A stretch of DNA of 64,000 nucleotides from Microcaldota archaeon. Its GTDB lineage: Archaea > Micrarchaeota > Micrarchaeia > Micrarchaeales > CABMGC01. The first letter of the stretch is position 1, and the number at the start of each line of letters is the position of its first letter. The notes under the pieces were generated by a model. It had not been told where the DNA came from and did no database searches. It was given only the letters and a program-made list of their open reading frames with translations. The stretch covers positions 1 through 64,000 of the forward strand of contig JAJZOD010000004.1 in NCBI GenBank assembly GCA_021852055.1, given 5' to 3'. Of this stretch, positions 5,479 through 53,561 are shown in pieces. The position numbers and the translations under genes were made by a program.

Positions 5479-6411
5479 TCATCGGTTCTGCTTGCGCATG
5501 CGCTCCATTACATCGGCAATGCGCGGTATGTTGCTCTGGCATCCAAGCTTCTCTACAACAAACGATGCTGTTGCAGAAGCTATGTATGCAGAGCGCACAA
5601 TGTCTCCTGTCTTGAGATAGCTGGCTATAAATGCAGCAGCGTATGCATCGCCAGTACCTGTCGTGCCGACTACGGCCTTGGGCTTATATGCAGGTATGCT
5701 GATGGCATCGCTATTCGTGTATATCATACTGCCCTTGCTGCCACGCGTGACTATTACTGCCTTGATTCCGAACATAAGTTGAAGCCTGCTTGCATTGCAG
5801 CACAGCTTTTCCTGCAGCACCTCGGCCTCTTTTTCGTTAAGCAGCAGGAAATCGGTGTTGCGCAAACAACGGACTATGCTGTCCGTAGTATGGTAGGCTG
5901 TCTCGTGCGCTGGTGCATAGAAGTTGAGCGTTTTTGAAGTTGCAAGCGCCAACTCATTCAGCTTTTGTGTTCCGGATGTTGCGTACAATGCGGAGTACTT
6001 TGAGTTTTTCACAAAGCCCATGGCATGCTTTATATATGCATCAGAATCCTTTCCGAGATACGTGCCGTAGAAGAAGTTCCTGCTGTCCTGATTATCATTG
6101 AAGCTGTATGTAATCGGCACTTTTGAGCTCTTGCATTGAAACAGCCCCGATGTATCTGCACCTGCGCTGCTTAGATATTCATGGTAGCCTTTTGCCGCAA
6201 AGTCGCTTCCGGCAGGCCCTACAAGCAGAGTGTCGACATCGAATATCCTGGAGAACATTAGAAAATTTGCGCCTCTGCCGCCGAACGACTCTTTCAGTTC
6301 GTCGAGCTGCGTAGGGTGCTGCCCCTCTTTTAGCTCGTGGCTGGTGCCGTGTATGTCAATTGTCAGGCCGCCTAAGCACAGTATATCTGCTGCAATGGCG
6401 ATTTTACGCAT
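5479..6411 (-). CDS. PfkB-family carbohydrate/nucleoside kinase
   Basis: A 310-residue ribokinase-like kinase. The N-terminal substrate motif is GGRGAN (about residues 44-49) and the C-terminal PfkB signature is GTTGTGDAYAAAF, whose Asp is the catalytic base. TRGSKGS precedes it, as is usual. The family phosphorylates sugars or nucleosides using ATP; archaeal members with a GG.GAN motif include nucleoside kinases and sugar kinases, so the substrate is open. It converges on the HAD gene, and no other sugar-metabolism gene adjoins. Confidence 0.85.
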   Translation of the reverse strand: MRKIAIAADILCLGGLTIDIHGTSHELKEGQHPTQLDELKESFGGRGANFLMFSRIFDVDTLLVGPAGSDFAAKGYHEYLSSAGADTSGLFQCKSSKVPITYSFNDNQDSRNFFYGTYLGKDSDAYIKHAMGFVKNSKYSALYATSGTQKLNELALATSKTLNFYAPAHETAYHTTDSIVRCLRNTDFLLLNEKEAEVLQEKLCCNASRLQLMFGIKAVIVTRGSKGSMIYTNSDAISIPAYKPKAVVGTTGTGDAYAAAFIASYLKTGDIVRSAYIASATASFVVEKLGCQSNIPRIADVMERMRKQNR

Positions 6412-6551: not shown

Positions 6552-6566
6552 ATTTGCAGGGGGAGA
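6552..6566. repeat. att-like direct repeat, distal copy
   Basis: ATTTGCAGGGGGAGA, identical over 15 bp to 7676-7690 within and next to the tRNA-Leu 3' end. Interpreted as the distal attachment-site copy made on integration. Identity is lost immediately after the core. Confidence 0.65.
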
Positions 6567-6579
6567 AACTAGACTCACA

Positions 6580-6616
6580 AACCCTTAGCGGGTTCGTGGA
6601 TTCAAATCTCGCTAGC
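6580..6616 (+). other. tRNA-like 3' half (relic)
   Basis: A perfect hairpin AACCC-TTAGC-GGGTT (6580-6594) is followed by CGTGGA, a T-loop-like TTCAAAT (6601-6607) and CTCGC. The layout resembles the long variable arm and T arm of a Leu/Ser tRNA, but the T stem pairs poorly and no matching acceptor or D arm is present. It may be a fragment of a tRNA target or chance. Confidence 0.3.
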
Positions 6617-6678
6617 TTTGAATCAGGATTACCGGTGTGATGGCTTGTTATGCAAAAAGTAATATAAATAAATCTAAG

Positions 6679-6696
6679 AGATATATTTATATATCT
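6679..6696. promoter_or_regulatory. Palindromic operator before the toxin-antitoxin pair
   Basis: A perfect inverted repeat AGATATAT-TT-ATATATCT lies 26 bp before the antitoxin ATG, overlapping the A/T-rich promoter. Antitoxins with winged-helix domains commonly repress their own operon through such a site. The role is inferred. Confidence 0.5.
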
Positions 6697-6722
6697 AATT
6701 GATATAAATATTATTGATATAC

Positions 6723-7001
6723 ATGACTTCAAAAACTCAAGTTCAGACGCAGATTCAACATTCACCTACTCTGAACACAGTACTTATGGTGGAACAAACT
6801 TTAAGGGATAGCAAAGAGGTACTCAAAATAGCAGAATTGAAAAGGAGGCTGCCAAGGAAAGTGATGCACGCAACTCTTCTTGAAATTTTAAATTACCTAC
6901 AAGAAAGTGGCAAGATACTGATAACTACAAAAGGAGTAGTGTGGACATACACTCCCAGCGATTTGATGGATAAGCTTAAGAAAGGAGGATTAGAGCTATG
7001 A
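6723..7001 (+). CDS. Winged-helix antitoxin-like protein
   Basis: A 92-residue basic protein. Residues 25-80 look like a winged helix: helices around KEVLKIAELKRRLPRKV and ATLLEILNYLQESGKILIT, then a beta wing GVVWTY. Its stop overlaps the next gene's start (ATGA, 6998-7001), so the two are translationally coupled, as in type II toxin-antitoxin operons. I chose ATG 6723 over a TTG at 6714. A palindrome in the promoter suggests autorepression. Assignment as antitoxin rests on position and fold, not on a recognised family. Confidence 0.7.
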   Translation: MTSKTQVQTQIQHSPTLNTVLMVEQTLRDSKEVLKIAELKRRLPRKVMHATLLEILNYLQESGKILITTKGVVWTYTPSDLMDKLKKGGLEL

Positions 7002-7363
7002 AGACGCCAAAAGTCATAAGGGTAATTCTCAAAGGCCAAGCCAAAGAGGCTTATGAAATGCTCTGCAAAGTTGTAGAAGAGCAGAAAGGCAAGGGCAGGA
7101 CAAACTCAGAAGAGATACAATTGCTGAAATCAATAAACAAGAAAGTAGAGCTTCTCAAGTATAATCAGGCATATGGACAAGGCATAGCAAAAGAACAGAT
7201 ACCGAAAGGTCTTGATGTTAATAATCTGTTCCGAATAGAACTTACTCACTATTGGAGGATGATATATACTATACGAACTAACGAAGTAGAGATAGTGAGT
7301 TTTATCCTGTACATAATAGATCACAAGGAATATGACAAGATATTAGGTTATAGAAAACAGTAG
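6998..7363 (+). CDS. RelE/ParE-like toxin
   Basis: A 121-residue protein whose C-terminal half has the RelE/ParE-like pattern: FRIELTHYWRMIYTI, then VEIVSFILYIIDHKEYDKILGY. This matches the family's paired beta strands with a conserved Arg/Lys and the final D.H..Y element. RelE-type toxins cleave mRNA on the ribosome. It overlaps the antitoxin by 4 bp and ends 3 bp from the convergent integrase remnant. The pair is the only cargo of the integrated element and may explain its retention by addiction. Confidence 0.75.
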   Translation: MKTPKVIRVILKGQAKEAYEMLCKVVEEQKGKGRTNSEEIQLLKSINKKVELLKYNQAYGQGIAKEQIPKGLDVNNLFRIELTHYWRMIYTIRTNEVEIVSFILYIIDHKEYDKILGYRKQ

Positions 7364-7366
7364 GTT

Positions 7367-7711
7367 CTAGATATTTCTTGAGAGCCTTGATTTCAGGCCA
7401 GAAGCTTCGCTAAGACCAAATGCGTTGTCTACCTCCTTGTATGGCTCCTCTTTTCTAGTGGTTATGTAGGTCGTGGTGGTGCTTGGGTCGCTATGCCTAG
7501 CGAACCTGCTTGTAAGCACCAGATTTCCGTTTGTCTGCTTGGCGAAGTTGATTATGACATAGTGCCTTAGGCTGTGGGTAGTCAGCCTGTGGAGGTGCCT
7601 TACGTTCCTGTTAGGGTTGGTTTCATCTGAGGTATCATATACCTCGTACAACCCTGCTTTGACGTCGTAGATTGAATTTGCAGGGGGAGAGATTTGAACT
7701 CTCGTATCCAC
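7367..7711 (-). pseudogene. C-terminal half of a tyrosine recombinase, int(C)
   Basis: The sequence contains the second catalytic box of tyrosine recombinases: HSLRHYVI (HxxR), FARHSDPS (His) and TTTTYI (nucleophile Tyr). The first catalytic Arg and the whole N-terminal domain are absent. The reading frame enters from the 3' end of tRNA-Leu: the first 12 codons of the open frame are tRNA sequence, so no genuine start codon exists. This is what remains when an SSV-type int gene is split by integration. The partner int(N) near 6552 is not recognisable. Probably non-functional in situ. Confidence 0.8.
7676..7690. repeat. att-like direct repeat, tRNA-proximal copy
   Basis: The same 15 bp as at 6552-6566. 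It covers the tRNA-Leu acceptor 3' strand and discriminator (7679-7690) plus three bases beyond, so the tRNA is intact after integration. Confidence 0.7.
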
Positions 7712-7764
7712 AAAGGAAACAAGCCCTGAACCTGTCGCATTTGGCCAAGCTCTGCCACCCCTGC
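7679..7764 (-). tRNA. tRNA-Leu(CAG)
   Basis: An 86-nt tRNA read on the minus strand. Acceptor GCAGGGG pairs with CCCCUGC, with A as discriminator. Anticodon stem ACAGG/CUUGU encloses loop UUCAGGG (anticodon CAG). The long variable arm typical of Leu, and T arm GAGAG-UUCAAAU-CUCUC, are present. CCA is not encoded. It serves as the attachment site of the small integrated element downstream. Confidence 0.93.
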
Positions 7765-7828: not shown

Positions 7829-8998
7829 ATGATGATAGGATTAGTAGGCGCACCGAACAAAGGCAAGAGCACAATTTTCTCAGCGCTCACAATGCTTGAT
7901 GTACAAATTGCCGATTATCCGTTTACTACTATAAAACCGAATCTTGGAGTTACATACGCAACCAGGCAATGCGTCGAGAAAGAGCTTGGCGTGAAATGCA
8001 GGCCCAGGAATGGCTTATGCACCAATGGGATACGGCAGATTCCGGTAAATGTCGTTGACATAGCTGGACTTGTCCCAGGCGCAAGCATAGGCAAAGGCAT
8101 GGGAAATCAGTTCCTAAACGACATGTCGATGGCTGACGTTCTTGTCCAGGTTATAGATGCAAGCGGAAAAACAGACATGCATGGAAATGCCTCTGATTCC
8201 TCGGATCCTGCTGAAGAGGTAACCATGCTTCTTGATGAAATGGCACAGTGGCTGTCAACCATACTTGAAAGGCATATGCCCGGGCTTTCTAAAAAAGCTG
8301 ATGGTGTACATGCTGTCATGGATGTGCTGTCGAGCTTCAATGCCTCTGAAGAACAGATAAAATCCGCAATAAGGAATGCCAACATCTCTGATGCGTATGT
8401 ATCATGGGGGCAGGAATCAAGGATGAAATTTTCAATAGAATTCCTGAGGCTTAACAAACCCATTATAGTTGCTGCAAACAAACTTGATTTATGTCCGGCA
8501 GGAACTCTGGAAAGAATAAGAAAAAAACTTCCTGATTACAAAGTAGTAGGATGCTCCGGCGCCGTAGACCTTGCAGTGAGAAAAGCGGCAAAGGCAGGTG
8601 CCATACGCTACAGAAGCGATGAAGCATCATTTGATACAATAGGCAGCGTATCAGAAGACCAGAGAAAGGCACTGGATTATATGAGTGAGTATCTCAGGAA
8701 AAACAAGGGCACAGGAGTTCAGGAGCTTGTAAACACTGCAGTATTCGGGACAGCAATGAAGATTGTAGTGTACCCAGTCGAGAATGAGAATAAGTATACG
8801 GATCATTTCGGCAATGTGCTTCCTGATGCGCTTCTTTTGGGCAATGGCTCAACTGCACTAGACATGGCTCGGGTCATACATACAGACATTGCAGAGCACA
8901 TGCTGTATGCTGTTGATGCCAGAACAAAAAACAGGCTTGCGAAGGAGTACGTGCTGAATGATAATGATGTCATTAGAATAGTCAGCGCGGCGAAGTAG
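7829..8998 (+). CDS. YchF/Obg-like GTPase (archaeal)
   Basis: A 389-residue Obg-superfamily GTPase of the archaeal YchF/OLA1-like group. G1 is GAPNKGKST (residues 7-15), G3 is DIAGLV followed by the glycine-rich GASIGKGMGNQFL, and G4 is NKLD. The C-terminal region (about 300-389) fits the TGS-like domain. Proteins of this type bind ribosomes or other translation components. The start is one of two adjacent ATGs at 7829/7832, about 30 bp after a TATA-like TTTATATT. It diverges from tRNA-Leu and converges with the ABC exporter. Confidence 0.88.
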   Translation: MMIGLVGAPNKGKSTIFSALTMLDVQIADYPFTTIKPNLGVTYATRQCVEKELGVKCRPRNGLCTNGIRQIPVNVVDIAGLVPGASIGKGMGNQFLNDMSMADVLVQVIDASGKTDMHGNASDSSDPAEEVTMLLDEMAQWLSTILERHMPGLSKKADGVHAVMDVLSSFNASEEQIKSAIRNANISDAYVSWGQESRMKFSIEFLRLNKPIIVAANKLDLCPAGTLERIRKKLPDYKVVGCSGAVDLAVRKAAKAGAIRYRSDEASFDTIGSVSEDQRKALDYMSEYLRKNKGTGVQELVNTAVFGTAMKIVVYPVENENKYTDHFGNVLPDALLLGNGSTALDMARVIHTDIAEHMLYAVDARTKNRLAKEYVLNDNDVIRIVSAAK

Positions 8999-50798: not shown

Positions 50799-53561
50799 CT
50801 ATGAAACTGTTATGGTTGTCGGTGCACTGTTTGCCTGTTGTTGTGGGAATTGCGCGTTACCTGTATCGGTTGCCACTACAATGAAATTGTAGTTTCCGCC
50901 AGAAAGGAAGGTAGGTGTGGTATATATCGACGAAGTAGCGCCAGGTATTTTTGTATATCCTGACAAACCTGGATATTCCTCGTACCACTGGTAAGTGTAA
51001 GGAGGCACTCCTCCAGCAGCAGTTGCATAAAGCGTGACTGTGCTGCCCATTGTTGATATGTAATTTTGAGACGCAACGGCACTCACCATAAGCTGGCTTC
51101 CAATAGGGTTTGCTACTGAAAGCAGTGTGCCGCCTTCAGTAGGCAGTGGAAAAGAATACGCTTCGGACGCAAATCCATTATGTTCGACGTTGCCTCCAAA
51201 TACGTTGAAGAGGGAATAATAGCTATAAGAACCGATGTGACCTGCACCACCGGAGTCTACATAATCACCACCTACACACGCTGTAATGCCATCAATACCT
51301 GAAACCACACTTTCCATAGAACTGCAGGCTATATTCATAAGTGGGTCATCTCCAGGCTGTATGCCTGAGCTAACCCATGACCATGCACCTATGCCATCGG
51401 ACGTAAGAGGGGCATATACGTAGAATCCATAGCCTACACAGAAAATGTAAGGCGTGGATGTTCCTACGGAATTGCAACTTAACTGCCAATTTCTAACATA
51501 ATTATTGCCATAAGCCATCCATTCATTAACGCCTTGCATACCAGTAGTTTGATACCACGAACCTATCCCATTTGGCGTAAGTTGAGCGTAATAGAAATTG
51601 GCACCATTAGAATCTCCACCATTGCCGTTGTTGTAATAACCACCAACGCAGTATATCCTATCTACTCCGCTAACTACTGCCGAAACGCAGCTTCCAGGCC
51701 CAGCACTTCCTGGATATGAAGTTGTTTGCGTCCAAGTACCTATTCCAACAACCACATTATTCTTAATATAAATAGGCGCGTAGTATGCATATGTATCGCT
51801 TATGCTACCTCCTGCGCCGCCACCACCGCCTGCACCTCCTCCGCCAACGCAGTATATGTAACTATTTCCTCCGGATGTTGTGTTTGTTACACAGTTTACC
51901 GACCCGCCGCTTATCGGGTAGGGAGTAGTCTGAACCCAAGTACCTATGCCATCTGCAGTAAGTGGAGCTATGTACGTGTTGTCTATATACCCTGGGCCTT
52001 GTTGTAGATAACCACCTACACAAATAGCATAACTATCGATGACCGTGCATCCGAAATTAGTCGGCATATAAGTATCGTAGTAAGAACCAGGATAGAGATT
52101 TAATGGATAACTGGTAGAAGGATAGGGTGTCGTACCATGCCATTGACTATAACCCGTAACCGCCGAGGAATTAAGGTAAGGGTATAGCTCACCGTCCAGC
52201 CCAACTACTCCGTAGTAAGCATTTGTGTTACCTGCAGTAGTTCCCCAATTTGTTTTGTCCTCCCCTGGCCACGGACCGATGCAACCGCCACCATAGTAAG
52301 AACAACCTATCATTCCGCCGAAATAGTACAAATAGCCAAGAACGCTTGGCGTGGGTGGTATATTGCTGAATTGCTGCAGAACATTCAACTGCACTGGCGT
52401 TGGATACGCTTTATCATTGAGACTGTCTGTAACTATTGCACAGTAGTAGTAGACACCCGATGAAGACTGCGATGCCGTGTACGTGCTTTGAATCGCACCC
52501 GATATATAAGAATCAAGGTTACAATTCGGGCTTGTGCCACTGAGCCACTGATATGTGTAAGGAGGTACACCTCCAGATATTGTCAAAGTAAATGTTTGTT
52601 GTTGGTTTACCTGCACTGTAGCAGTGGAAGGAGAGATTGTCGCGTATAATTGCGGCAGAACATTCAACTGCGCTGGCGTTGGATACGCTTTATCATTGAG
52701 ACTGTCTGTAACTATTGCACAGTAGTAGTAGACACCCGATGAAGACTGCGATGCCGTGTACGTGCTTTGAATCGCACCCGATATATAAGAATCAAGGTTA
52801 CAATTCGGGCTTGTGCCACTGAGCCACTGATATGTGTAAGGAGGTACACCTCCAGATATTGTCAAAGTAAATGTTTGTTGTTGGTTTACCTGCACTGTAG
52901 CAGTGGAAGGAGAGATTGTCGCGTATAATTGCTGTACAGAAACTGTAGTTGTGGAGGTGGTAGTTGAAGTTGTAGTTGAAGTTGATGTTGAAGTGGTAGT
53001 TGAAGTTGTTGTAGTTGAAGAAGTGGTGCTTGTTGTGCTTGATGGCATAGGCGTAGCGTAAGCGGCAGCAGAGCCCGAAGTATTTATTAAAGGTAGAGAT
53101 GTGTAGTTGCTGCAGGAAAGGTTCTTGCACTCGAAATATTGTAAGTAAAATGTAGGTTGCAGCTCTGAACCTGGAGTTACCGACAGGTCTACTGATACAG
53201 CACACGTTGCAGATGCACCTGCCTTGAGTATGTTGCCTGTTGCTGTTGTATTGCACTGCCCTGCAATATATTTGCTGCCAGATGACATTGAAGCATAGAA
53301 CGCAGGATCGCCCGGCAGGTATATGGAACTGCCTAGGTTGTTTGTAAACGCAATTTCAATGTCTGTTGCAACTGAATTTGTTGTTATTAACATTTGATAG
53401 CAGTACAGATTTGGAGTTATGTAGCAGTAGGATGGACTGTATGTCGATGGCTTCAAAGGCACAGCAAACATGTAAACGGCAATAATCACAGCTATGAGTA
53501 TCAGTATAGCCGCAGCATACTGCGACAAGAACTCCATTGAAGACTGTAATCTTAGATTCAA
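50799..53561 (-). CDS. Large pilin-like surface protein with Ig-like repeats
   Basis: A 920-residue exported protein. It starts with a short polar stretch and a long hydrophobic helix (residues about 8-33: FLSQYAAAILILIAVIIAVYMF), like archaeal type IV pilin/class III signal sequences. A Thr/Ser-rich linker (STTTSTTTSTST, about 175-205) follows, then two near-identical 93-residue Ig-like modules (TISGGVPPYTYQWLSG), a Kelch-like region of repeated GIGTWTQTT...YCVGG units and a C-terminal PPYTYQWYEE module. Probably adhesion or an S-layer-associated role. Confidence 0.75.
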   Translation of the reverse strand: MNLRLQSSMEFLSQYAAAILILIAVIIAVYMFAVPLKPSTYSPSYCYITPNLYCYQMLITTNSVATDIEIAFTNNLGSSIYLPGDPAFYASMSSGSKYIAGQCNTTATGNILKAGASATCAVSVDLSVTPGSELQPTFYLQYFECKNLSCSNYTSLPLINTSGSAAAYATPMPSSTTSTTSSTTTTSTTTSTSTSTTTSTTTSTTTVSVQQLYATISPSTATVQVNQQQTFTLTISGGVPPYTYQWLSGTSPNCNLDSYISGAIQSTYTASQSSSGVYYYCAIVTDSLNDKAYPTPAQLNVLPQLYATISPSTATVQVNQQQTFTLTISGGVPPYTYQWLSGTSPNCNLDSYISGAIQSTYTASQSSSGVYYYCAIVTDSLNDKAYPTPVQLNVLQQFSNIPPTPSVLGYLYYFGGMIGCSYYGGGCIGPWPGEDKTNWGTTAGNTNAYYGVVGLDGELYPYLNSSAVTGYSQWHGTTPYPSTSYPLNLYPGSYYDTYMPTNFGCTVIDSYAICVGGYLQQGPGYIDNTYIAPLTADGIGTWVQTTPYPISGGSVNCVTNTTSGGNSYIYCVGGGGAGGGGGAGGSISDTYAYYAPIYIKNNVVVGIGTWTQTTSYPGSAGPGSCVSAVVSGVDRIYCVGGYYNNGNGGDSNGANFYYAQLTPNGIGSWYQTTGMQGVNEWMAYGNNYVRNWQLSCNSVGTSTPYIFCVGYGFYVYAPLTSDGIGAWSWVSSGIQPGDDPLMNIACSSMESVVSGIDGITACVGGDYVDSGGAGHIGSYSYYSLFNVFGGNVEHNGFASEAYSFPLPTEGGTLLSVANPIGSQLMVSAVASQNYISTMGSTVTLYATAAGGVPPYTYQWYEEYPGLSGYTKIPGATSSIYTTPTFLSGGNYNFIVVATDTGNAQFPQQQANSAPTTITVS
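52380..52937 (-). repeat. 279-bp tandem duplication inside the surface protein gene
   Basis: 52380-52658 and 52659-52937 are the same 279-bp unit head to tail. By eye only one internal base differs (a C/T on the coding strand that gives TPVQLNV versus TPAQLNV), apart from the outer edges. The unit codes for one 93-residue Ig-like module, so the frame is kept. Recent duplication or gene conversion. Confidence 0.9.

Follow-up and report, generated by a model that had tools for sequence, protein, structure and literature searches.

Downstream of a tRNA-Leu(CAG) gene in a Microcaldota archaeon, positions 6552-7678 of the 64,000-nt stretch of DNA analyzed here (the window) hold, within 1.1 kb, the remains of an integrase gene, a palindrome, and a toxin-antitoxin (TA) operon whose two genes are coupled. 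The segment reads as the relic, probably dead, of an element made of a TA pair and an integrase gene (int) that is split by its own integration into two parts, int(N) and int(C). It is very likely that the relic belongs, in degenerate form, to a large family of small elements of this kind found across Micrarchaeota, that its self-splitting int has decayed, and that its TA operon was kept, probably through the poisoning of cells that lose it. The relic is modest in itself; the family behind it is the interesting part. A broader proposition, which we favor with a good deal less assurance, is that Micrarchaeota evolved suicidal integration independently, with a XerA-like enzyme and at many tRNAs, and that the smallest members of the family consist of int and TA only, leaving TA-only fossils behind. 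The features of the region are as follows.

6552-6566, minus strand: attR core repeat, the outer boundary of the element
6552-6620, minus strand: attR with a remnant of int(N), identified by the family-specific terminus (C-terminal part of the MARNIGVKQLGN.LKPLAGSRVQISPPAN segment; start-codon region lost)
6565-6611, plus strand: micro-inversion of the attR core, placed by alignment scores, with breakpoints ambiguous over 6565-6567 and 6608-6611 at GAGA/TCTC
6679-6696, no strand: palindrome AGATATATTTATATATCT, likely operator, overlapping a TATA-like stretch 27-44 nt upstream of the antitoxin ATG
6723-7001, plus strand: antitoxin, 92 aa, predicted winged helix, its stop overlapping the toxin start (ATGA)
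6998-7363, plus strand: RelE/ParE-superfamily toxin, 121 aa, its 3' end convergent with int across a 3-nt gap
7367-7678, minus strand: int(C) remnant, in which the ~10 codons that follow the tRNA run directly into the final ~100 integrase codons
7650-7657, minus strand: deletion scar, the 8-bp repeat GCAGGGTT, placed by alignment to int of the same-genus genome G005
7676-7690, minus strand: attL core at the tRNA 3' end, an exact repeat with 6552-6566
7679-7764, minus strand: tRNA-Leu(CAG), the integration target, intact (ARAGORN; Rfam tRNA, 45 bits; synteny with the GTPase gene in many relatives)
7829-8998: core GTPase gene, divergent to tRNA-Leu(CAG)

An integrated element at tRNA-Leu(CAG)

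The ends of the element are marked by two exact copies of a 15-nt repeat, ATTTGCAGGGGGAGA, at 6552-6566 and 7676-7690. The target is the 3' part of the tRNA gene, which has been restored, so that an intact tRNA-Leu(CAG) stands at attL and the 15-nt core at attR. The exact pair, the intact tRNA, and an attR terminus specific to the family bear out the sequence-only reading of this DNA, which had described a tRNA-Leu integrated element with 15-bp att repeats. That reading had also raised two doubts, that the repeat might be common in the genome and that int(C) might belong to a host recombinase gene. Neither applies: the 14-mer TTTGCAGGGGGAGA occurs exactly at only two sites in the 1.02-Mb genome, the element's two ends at 6552 and 7676, and the integrase is a member of a mobile family. 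Copies of the 14-mer with one mismatch lie at C2:49026 and C14:76817, the latter inside a related tRNA-Leu element.

The divergent arrangement of tRNA-Leu(CAG) and the GTPase gene is conserved in many relatives. A search for the empty site had been proposed, and at least 14 relatives indeed carry neither int nor TA at this position. The same site is occupied in G023 by a TA element with a decayed int, and in locus L105 by an element of 3.7 kb whose int is near-full, with one frameshift, and whose attR matches at 42/42. The proposed search for free or full-length relatives was thus answered in part, by the longer relative L105; IMG/VR, searched for free or viral forms by int and by toxin, yielded no relative.

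Related TA operons also occur with no tRNA or int nearby (L070, L072, L074), as they might if the operon in the window were a host or free-standing one that lies beside a tRNA gene between chance repeats, with no mobile element involved. We give this very little credence, given the empty sites in relatives, the att repeat with its family-specific attR terminus, and DNA homology that crosses the toxin/int junction (window 7307-7658 against L049, 78.7% over 352 nt).

A larger island to the left of 6552 was considered and rejected; no further att copy was found there, and 6552 was therefore kept as the boundary. Directly outside it lies a pfkB-type sugar kinase gene (5479-6411) that lacks a homologue in 40 relatives and may have been acquired separately. 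Far from the element, at about 52376-52700 of the window, there is a direct repeat with a 279-nt spacing (15-mers repeated between ~52376 and 52655).

Decay of the integrase gene and of the outer end

An ORF at 7367-7711 on the minus strand runs through the tRNA 3' end and carries at its end a tyrosine-recombinase C-terminus (PHROG_216 integrase, 1e-7). The remnant is 82-85% identical to full-length integrases and keeps the HxxR, H, and Y boxes but has lost the GLRIGE box with the catalytic Arg, and also the Lys region, so that the R-K-HxxR-H-Y set of a functional tyrosine recombinase is incomplete. In the int of G005, a genome of the same genus, GCAGGGTT or a near copy stands on both sides of ~0.56 kb that is missing from the window, and most of int(C) was lost by deletion between these repeats. 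The earlier description of an int(C) reading through the tRNA 3' end is accordingly right as to the read-through but not as to an intact half. The dN/dS of the remnant against G005 is 0.26, as compared with 0.07 between two full-length integrases. Because the lost ~0.56 kb includes the catalytic Arg and Lys, the element is probably dead.

The outer end has been rearranged as well. Leu-targeting elements share a common attR terminus, ATGGCTAGGAATATAGGCGTGAAACAGCTAGGAAACACTCTCAAACCCTTAGCGGGTTCGAGAGTTCAAATCTCTCCCCCTGCA, and in the window 6566-6552 (minus strand) is canonical while the next ~45 bp match the same terminus on the opposite strand. Undoing a single inversion raises the score against family ends from 36 (minus) or 56 (plus) to 85; among 293 control sites at which inversions were freely allowed, the best score was 29. 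The int(N) half, once described as not recognizable, thus becomes recognizable when the ~45-bp inversion is undone. The inversion also accounts for a puzzling tRNA-like piece on the plus strand and fixes the outer boundary. Two other interpretations of this segment were discarded: a tRNA-Leu(TAG) pseudogene or split-tRNA half at 6573-6610 (plus strand), where the sequence preceding the variable arm is element terminus and not tRNA, and the use of GTGTGAAATATGGCTAGGAA and GCGTGAAACAGCTAGGAA as direct-repeat arm sites, these being mostly int(N) coding sequence.

An element in G079, with a TA 89% identical to that of the window, has a canonical attR and keeps ~1.2 kb between the antitoxin and attR, so cargo at this position was probably lost from the window element too. 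With the int deletion, the probable loss of cargo, and the inversion of ~45 bp of the attR core, self-excision would no longer be expected. Might the element still be mobilized in trans, as a non-autonomous passenger of a related element's integrase? Close relatives of its TA do lie at tRNA-Leu genes of distant genera beside a decayed or missing int (L249, L251, L069), and the rescue of suicidal integrases by a related integrase has been discussed (PMC8371274). That said, the attR core of the window is inverted and every int copy found in this genome looks broken, which makes mobilization unlikely and leaves a dead relic as the preferred reading.

A probably self-splitting integrase gene

Integrase relatives are present in 24 of 40 related genomes, many of them full-length (~276-340 aa) and directly 3' of tRNA genes. 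The tRNA 3' end is read through by 66 of the 77 integrases with an assigned tRNA. An ordinary unsplit integrase, suggested by the open ORF in integrated relatives, was overturned by a circular-junction test, in which the attR and attL of the same element were joined as in the circle for the 26 elements with both ends. The int frame is open for at least 60 nt upstream of the att join in 25 of the 26 (6 and 5 for the other two frames), and in 20 elements an ATG in the int frame precedes the join by 60-95 nt, against 2 and 0 in the others. The N-termini of int(N) are conserved by target, being MARNIGVKQLGN.LKPLAGSRVQISPPAN in Leu elements and M(K/E)LENDDKxGQGRGAFNPATRVQIP in Glu elements. As the int frame is continuous across the joined att, integration cuts int, with int(N) ending up at attR and int(C) beside the tRNA; judged by its sequences, the family has the SSV-type architecture, with attP inside int and the gene split on integration.

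In the circle, a short int(N) of ~26-30 codons would provide the start codon, and presumably the promoter, and its frame would continue through att into int(C). Recombination with the 3' end of the tRNA gene would then leave the tRNA intact, with int(C) beside it and int(N) stranded at attR, and the splitting would silence the integrase. We infer the reaction and the silencing; the architecture comes from the sequence.

In five further elements, targeted to tRNA-Pro, Arg, or Val, the whole of int lies within the element; in the tRNA-Pro and Arg elements L061, L140, L141, and L145 it starts ~250 nt inside. (In L061, L140, and L141, all at tRNA-Pro, the tRNA 3' end is spanned by a different small ORF.) These four loci, and L139, whose int ORF contains an ATG 65 nt past the tRNA, give some substance to the view that the window holds the relic of a classical element of the pNOB8/lambda type, with an int contained entirely within it and left whole by integration. 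The window int, however, belongs to the Leu clade. Integrases of this clade run through the tRNA, and in most elements with both ends known their frame is continuous with a conserved, ATG-started int(N) at attR (MARNIGVKQLG...). A classical ancestor is thus quite improbable, and a self-splitting one is preferred.

The proteins themselves are of another kind than the SSV integrases. PF00589 was found in 9 of 10 integrases tested and PF16795 in none, and the nearest solved chains to the family integrases are XerC/XerA-like. PF16795 was absent from the 40 relatives searched and was found in 3 of 14 control genomes. The label "SSV-type" therefore holds for the architecture, with its open junctions and int(N) remnant, but not for the protein family, which is PF00589/XerA-like and not PF16795. 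This difference suggests an independent origin of suicidal integration in the family.

The toxin-antitoxin operon

The translationally coupled operon is apparently the functional part left of the element. It shows the layout of a type II TA system, with small overlapping genes, the antitoxin first, and a palindrome kept in homologous operons. This palindrome has perfect 8-bp arms and recurs at about the same position upstream of three homologous operons (G010:C78, G010:C3, G013), being imperfect in G032. Searches of Pfam, NCBIfam, and PADLOC with the window TA proteins gave no match. ParE_toxin (PF05016) is matched by 9 of 13 members of the toxin family (best 1.1e-6), the window toxin itself being without a Pfam match, and Foldseek aligns the AF2 model of the window toxin (pLDDT 80.7) with YoeB, PfiT, ParE, and archaeal RelE structures (best E 7e-4, probability 1.00). 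The antitoxin is modeled by AF2 as HHH-EE (pLDDT 76.9); a winged-helix fold is predicted from weak Foldseek matches to winged-helix proteins and weak wHTH matches in sequence searches. The ATGA overlap, the RelE fold and PF05016 family, and the conserved palindrome agree with the coupled RelE-like toxin operon and palindromic operator first proposed from the letters.

We infer type II function, that is, growth inhibition and its neutralization, from the operon structure and the fold. Judging by its fold, the RelE/ParE-type toxin is probably a ribosome-dependent mRNase, and the winged-helix antitoxin probably neutralizes the toxin and binds to the palindrome that lies over the antitoxin's own promoter.

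Against G150, dN/dS is 0.09 for the toxin and 0.12 for the antitoxin, and against G010 it is 0.03 for both. The TA is under strong purifying selection, though these values (0.03-0.12) also span time spent on mobile ancestors. The toxin family is present in 69 of 164 genomes of the order. Across genera and families the TA DNA is 84-91% identical (88-91% in G150 and G079), far more alike than the host GTPase, whose protein identity in other genera and families is only ~50-60%; the TA has thus spread horizontally.

Hosts, cargo, and the smallest members of the family

A scan of GTDB genomes gave 133 family loci, of which 80 were kept; these come from MAGs labeled Candidatus Micrarchaeota or Micrarchaeaceae, with a few labeled Marsarchaeota or bacterium. 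The elements target tRNA-Leu, Glu, Gln, Ala, Val, Pro, Arg, and Ser, among other tRNAs, and int clades largely follow the target. Measured by tRNA 3'-end repeats, the elements range from ~0.9 to 7.4 kb. Mobility in these MAGs is judged by comparison alone, no free circle or activity having been observed, and no paper describing Micrarchaeota int-TA elements was found in the open-access literature.

A TA pair of varying type directly after int is common in the family. The element L139 (JAJZKP010000029.1), at tRNA-Glu, is complete in 1768 bp, with an int of 276 aa, a toxin, an antitoxin, and a 64/64 att repeat. L093 (1845 bp) combines int with a DUF2283/DUF4258 pair and another small gene, and L052 (1927 bp) combines it with a ParE-type toxin and a small partner. 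HicAB is found in larger elements (L090, L094), as is a PIN toxin (L082). The relic in the window is not the smallest possible, as had been supposed: sister relics measure 879, 958, and 1058 bp, and complete int+TA elements 1.77-1.93 kb.

At several tRNAs an intact TA accompanies an int that is deleted, frameshifted, or absent (L067, L069, L073, L251, L264, L277, L286, L068, L268). The locus search was TA-based and favors loci with an intact TA, which biases these counts, so the recurrence of a TA with a broken int is only suggestive. Broken TA copies also occur, with a frameshifted toxin in L063 and L096, a truncation in L076, a stop in the antitoxin in L075, and a further case in L289. In L063 and L096 the integrase frame is open beside the frameshifted toxin, the reverse pattern of decay. 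The 1058-bp TA-only relic at tRNA-Leu(TAG) in L069 (6076-7219) has its operon inverted, pointing away from the tRNA, unlike all others.

The genome of the window contains other related elements. At C14:75131-83200 (L077, 5132-13190), tRNA-Leu(TAG) is followed by three attR copies (+1612, +3892, +7925), which mark related elements arranged in tandem; this array has a broken int and a further intact TA pair. A third related element lies at tRNA-Glu (C10:1-1450, L060), with a TA pair and an int that lacks its N-terminal part; the contig ends inside it.

Why the operon persists

The proposal that the relic has been retained by addiction fits an intact TA beside a dead int and is plausible but unproven. 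The TA would then have been kept because cells losing it are poisoned, which is the probable reason for its survival. Addiction is not absolute, since some TA copies are broken (L063, L096, L076, L075). The TA may instead be kept for a benefit to the host, such as defense against viruses or against rival elements that use this tRNA, and not by punished loss. Strong purifying selection on the TA would suit such a role, as would the differing TA types beside int in sister elements (HicAB, a ParE pair, DUF2283/DUF4258, a PIN toxin) and the tandem elements at tRNA-Leu(TAG) of this genome, which imply contested sites. Yet PADLOC gives no match and hence no defense association, and TA-only relics are scattered and lineage-specific. 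Host benefit is accordingly possible but doubtful, and addiction is retained as the working explanation.

Comparison with known systems

Self-splitting integrases have so far been regarded as a single archaeal invention within one integrase superfamily, described mostly from hyperthermophiles. In a review of archaeal tyrosine recombinases (PMC8371274), where neither Micrarchaeota nor DPANN is mentioned, the suicidal integrases are placed in PF16795 families and a single origin is inferred for them. If a XerA-like self-splitting family does exist in DPANN, the trait is convergent, and its evolution can be tested because members with an unsplit int sit in the same tree. The smallest complete members of the family would then be minimal selfish elements that, once inserted, close off their own way out and are not easily lost. 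Complete int+TA elements of less than 2 kb provide a natural, pared-down setting in which to test the addiction hypothesis, because no other cargo can account for their persistence; the window element illustrates the end state of such elements and a route to it.

The suicidal integrases of SSV1/SSV2, pTN3, and pT26-2 resemble those described here in that attP lies inside int and integration at a tRNA splits the gene to both borders. They have been assigned to Phage_integr_3 (PF16795), whereas the present family is PF00589/XerA-like, its hosts are DPANN, and its whole elements measure ~1.8-7 kb. Thaumarchaeota have cryptic integrated elements that are likewise small, reside in host genomes, and carry an integrase with few other genes, the smallest (2.6 kb) comprising int, a wHTH protein, and two unknown genes (PMC6563490); compared by description, the smallest intact elements here are shorter (1.77-1.93 kb) and hold int+TA only. 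The TA of the window shares with YefM-YoeB and archaeal RelBE an antitoxin-first coupled operon, a palindromic operator, and a RelE-fold toxin, but differs from them in its larger toxin (121 aa, with an extra helical N-terminal part) and in an antitoxin predicted to be a winged helix.
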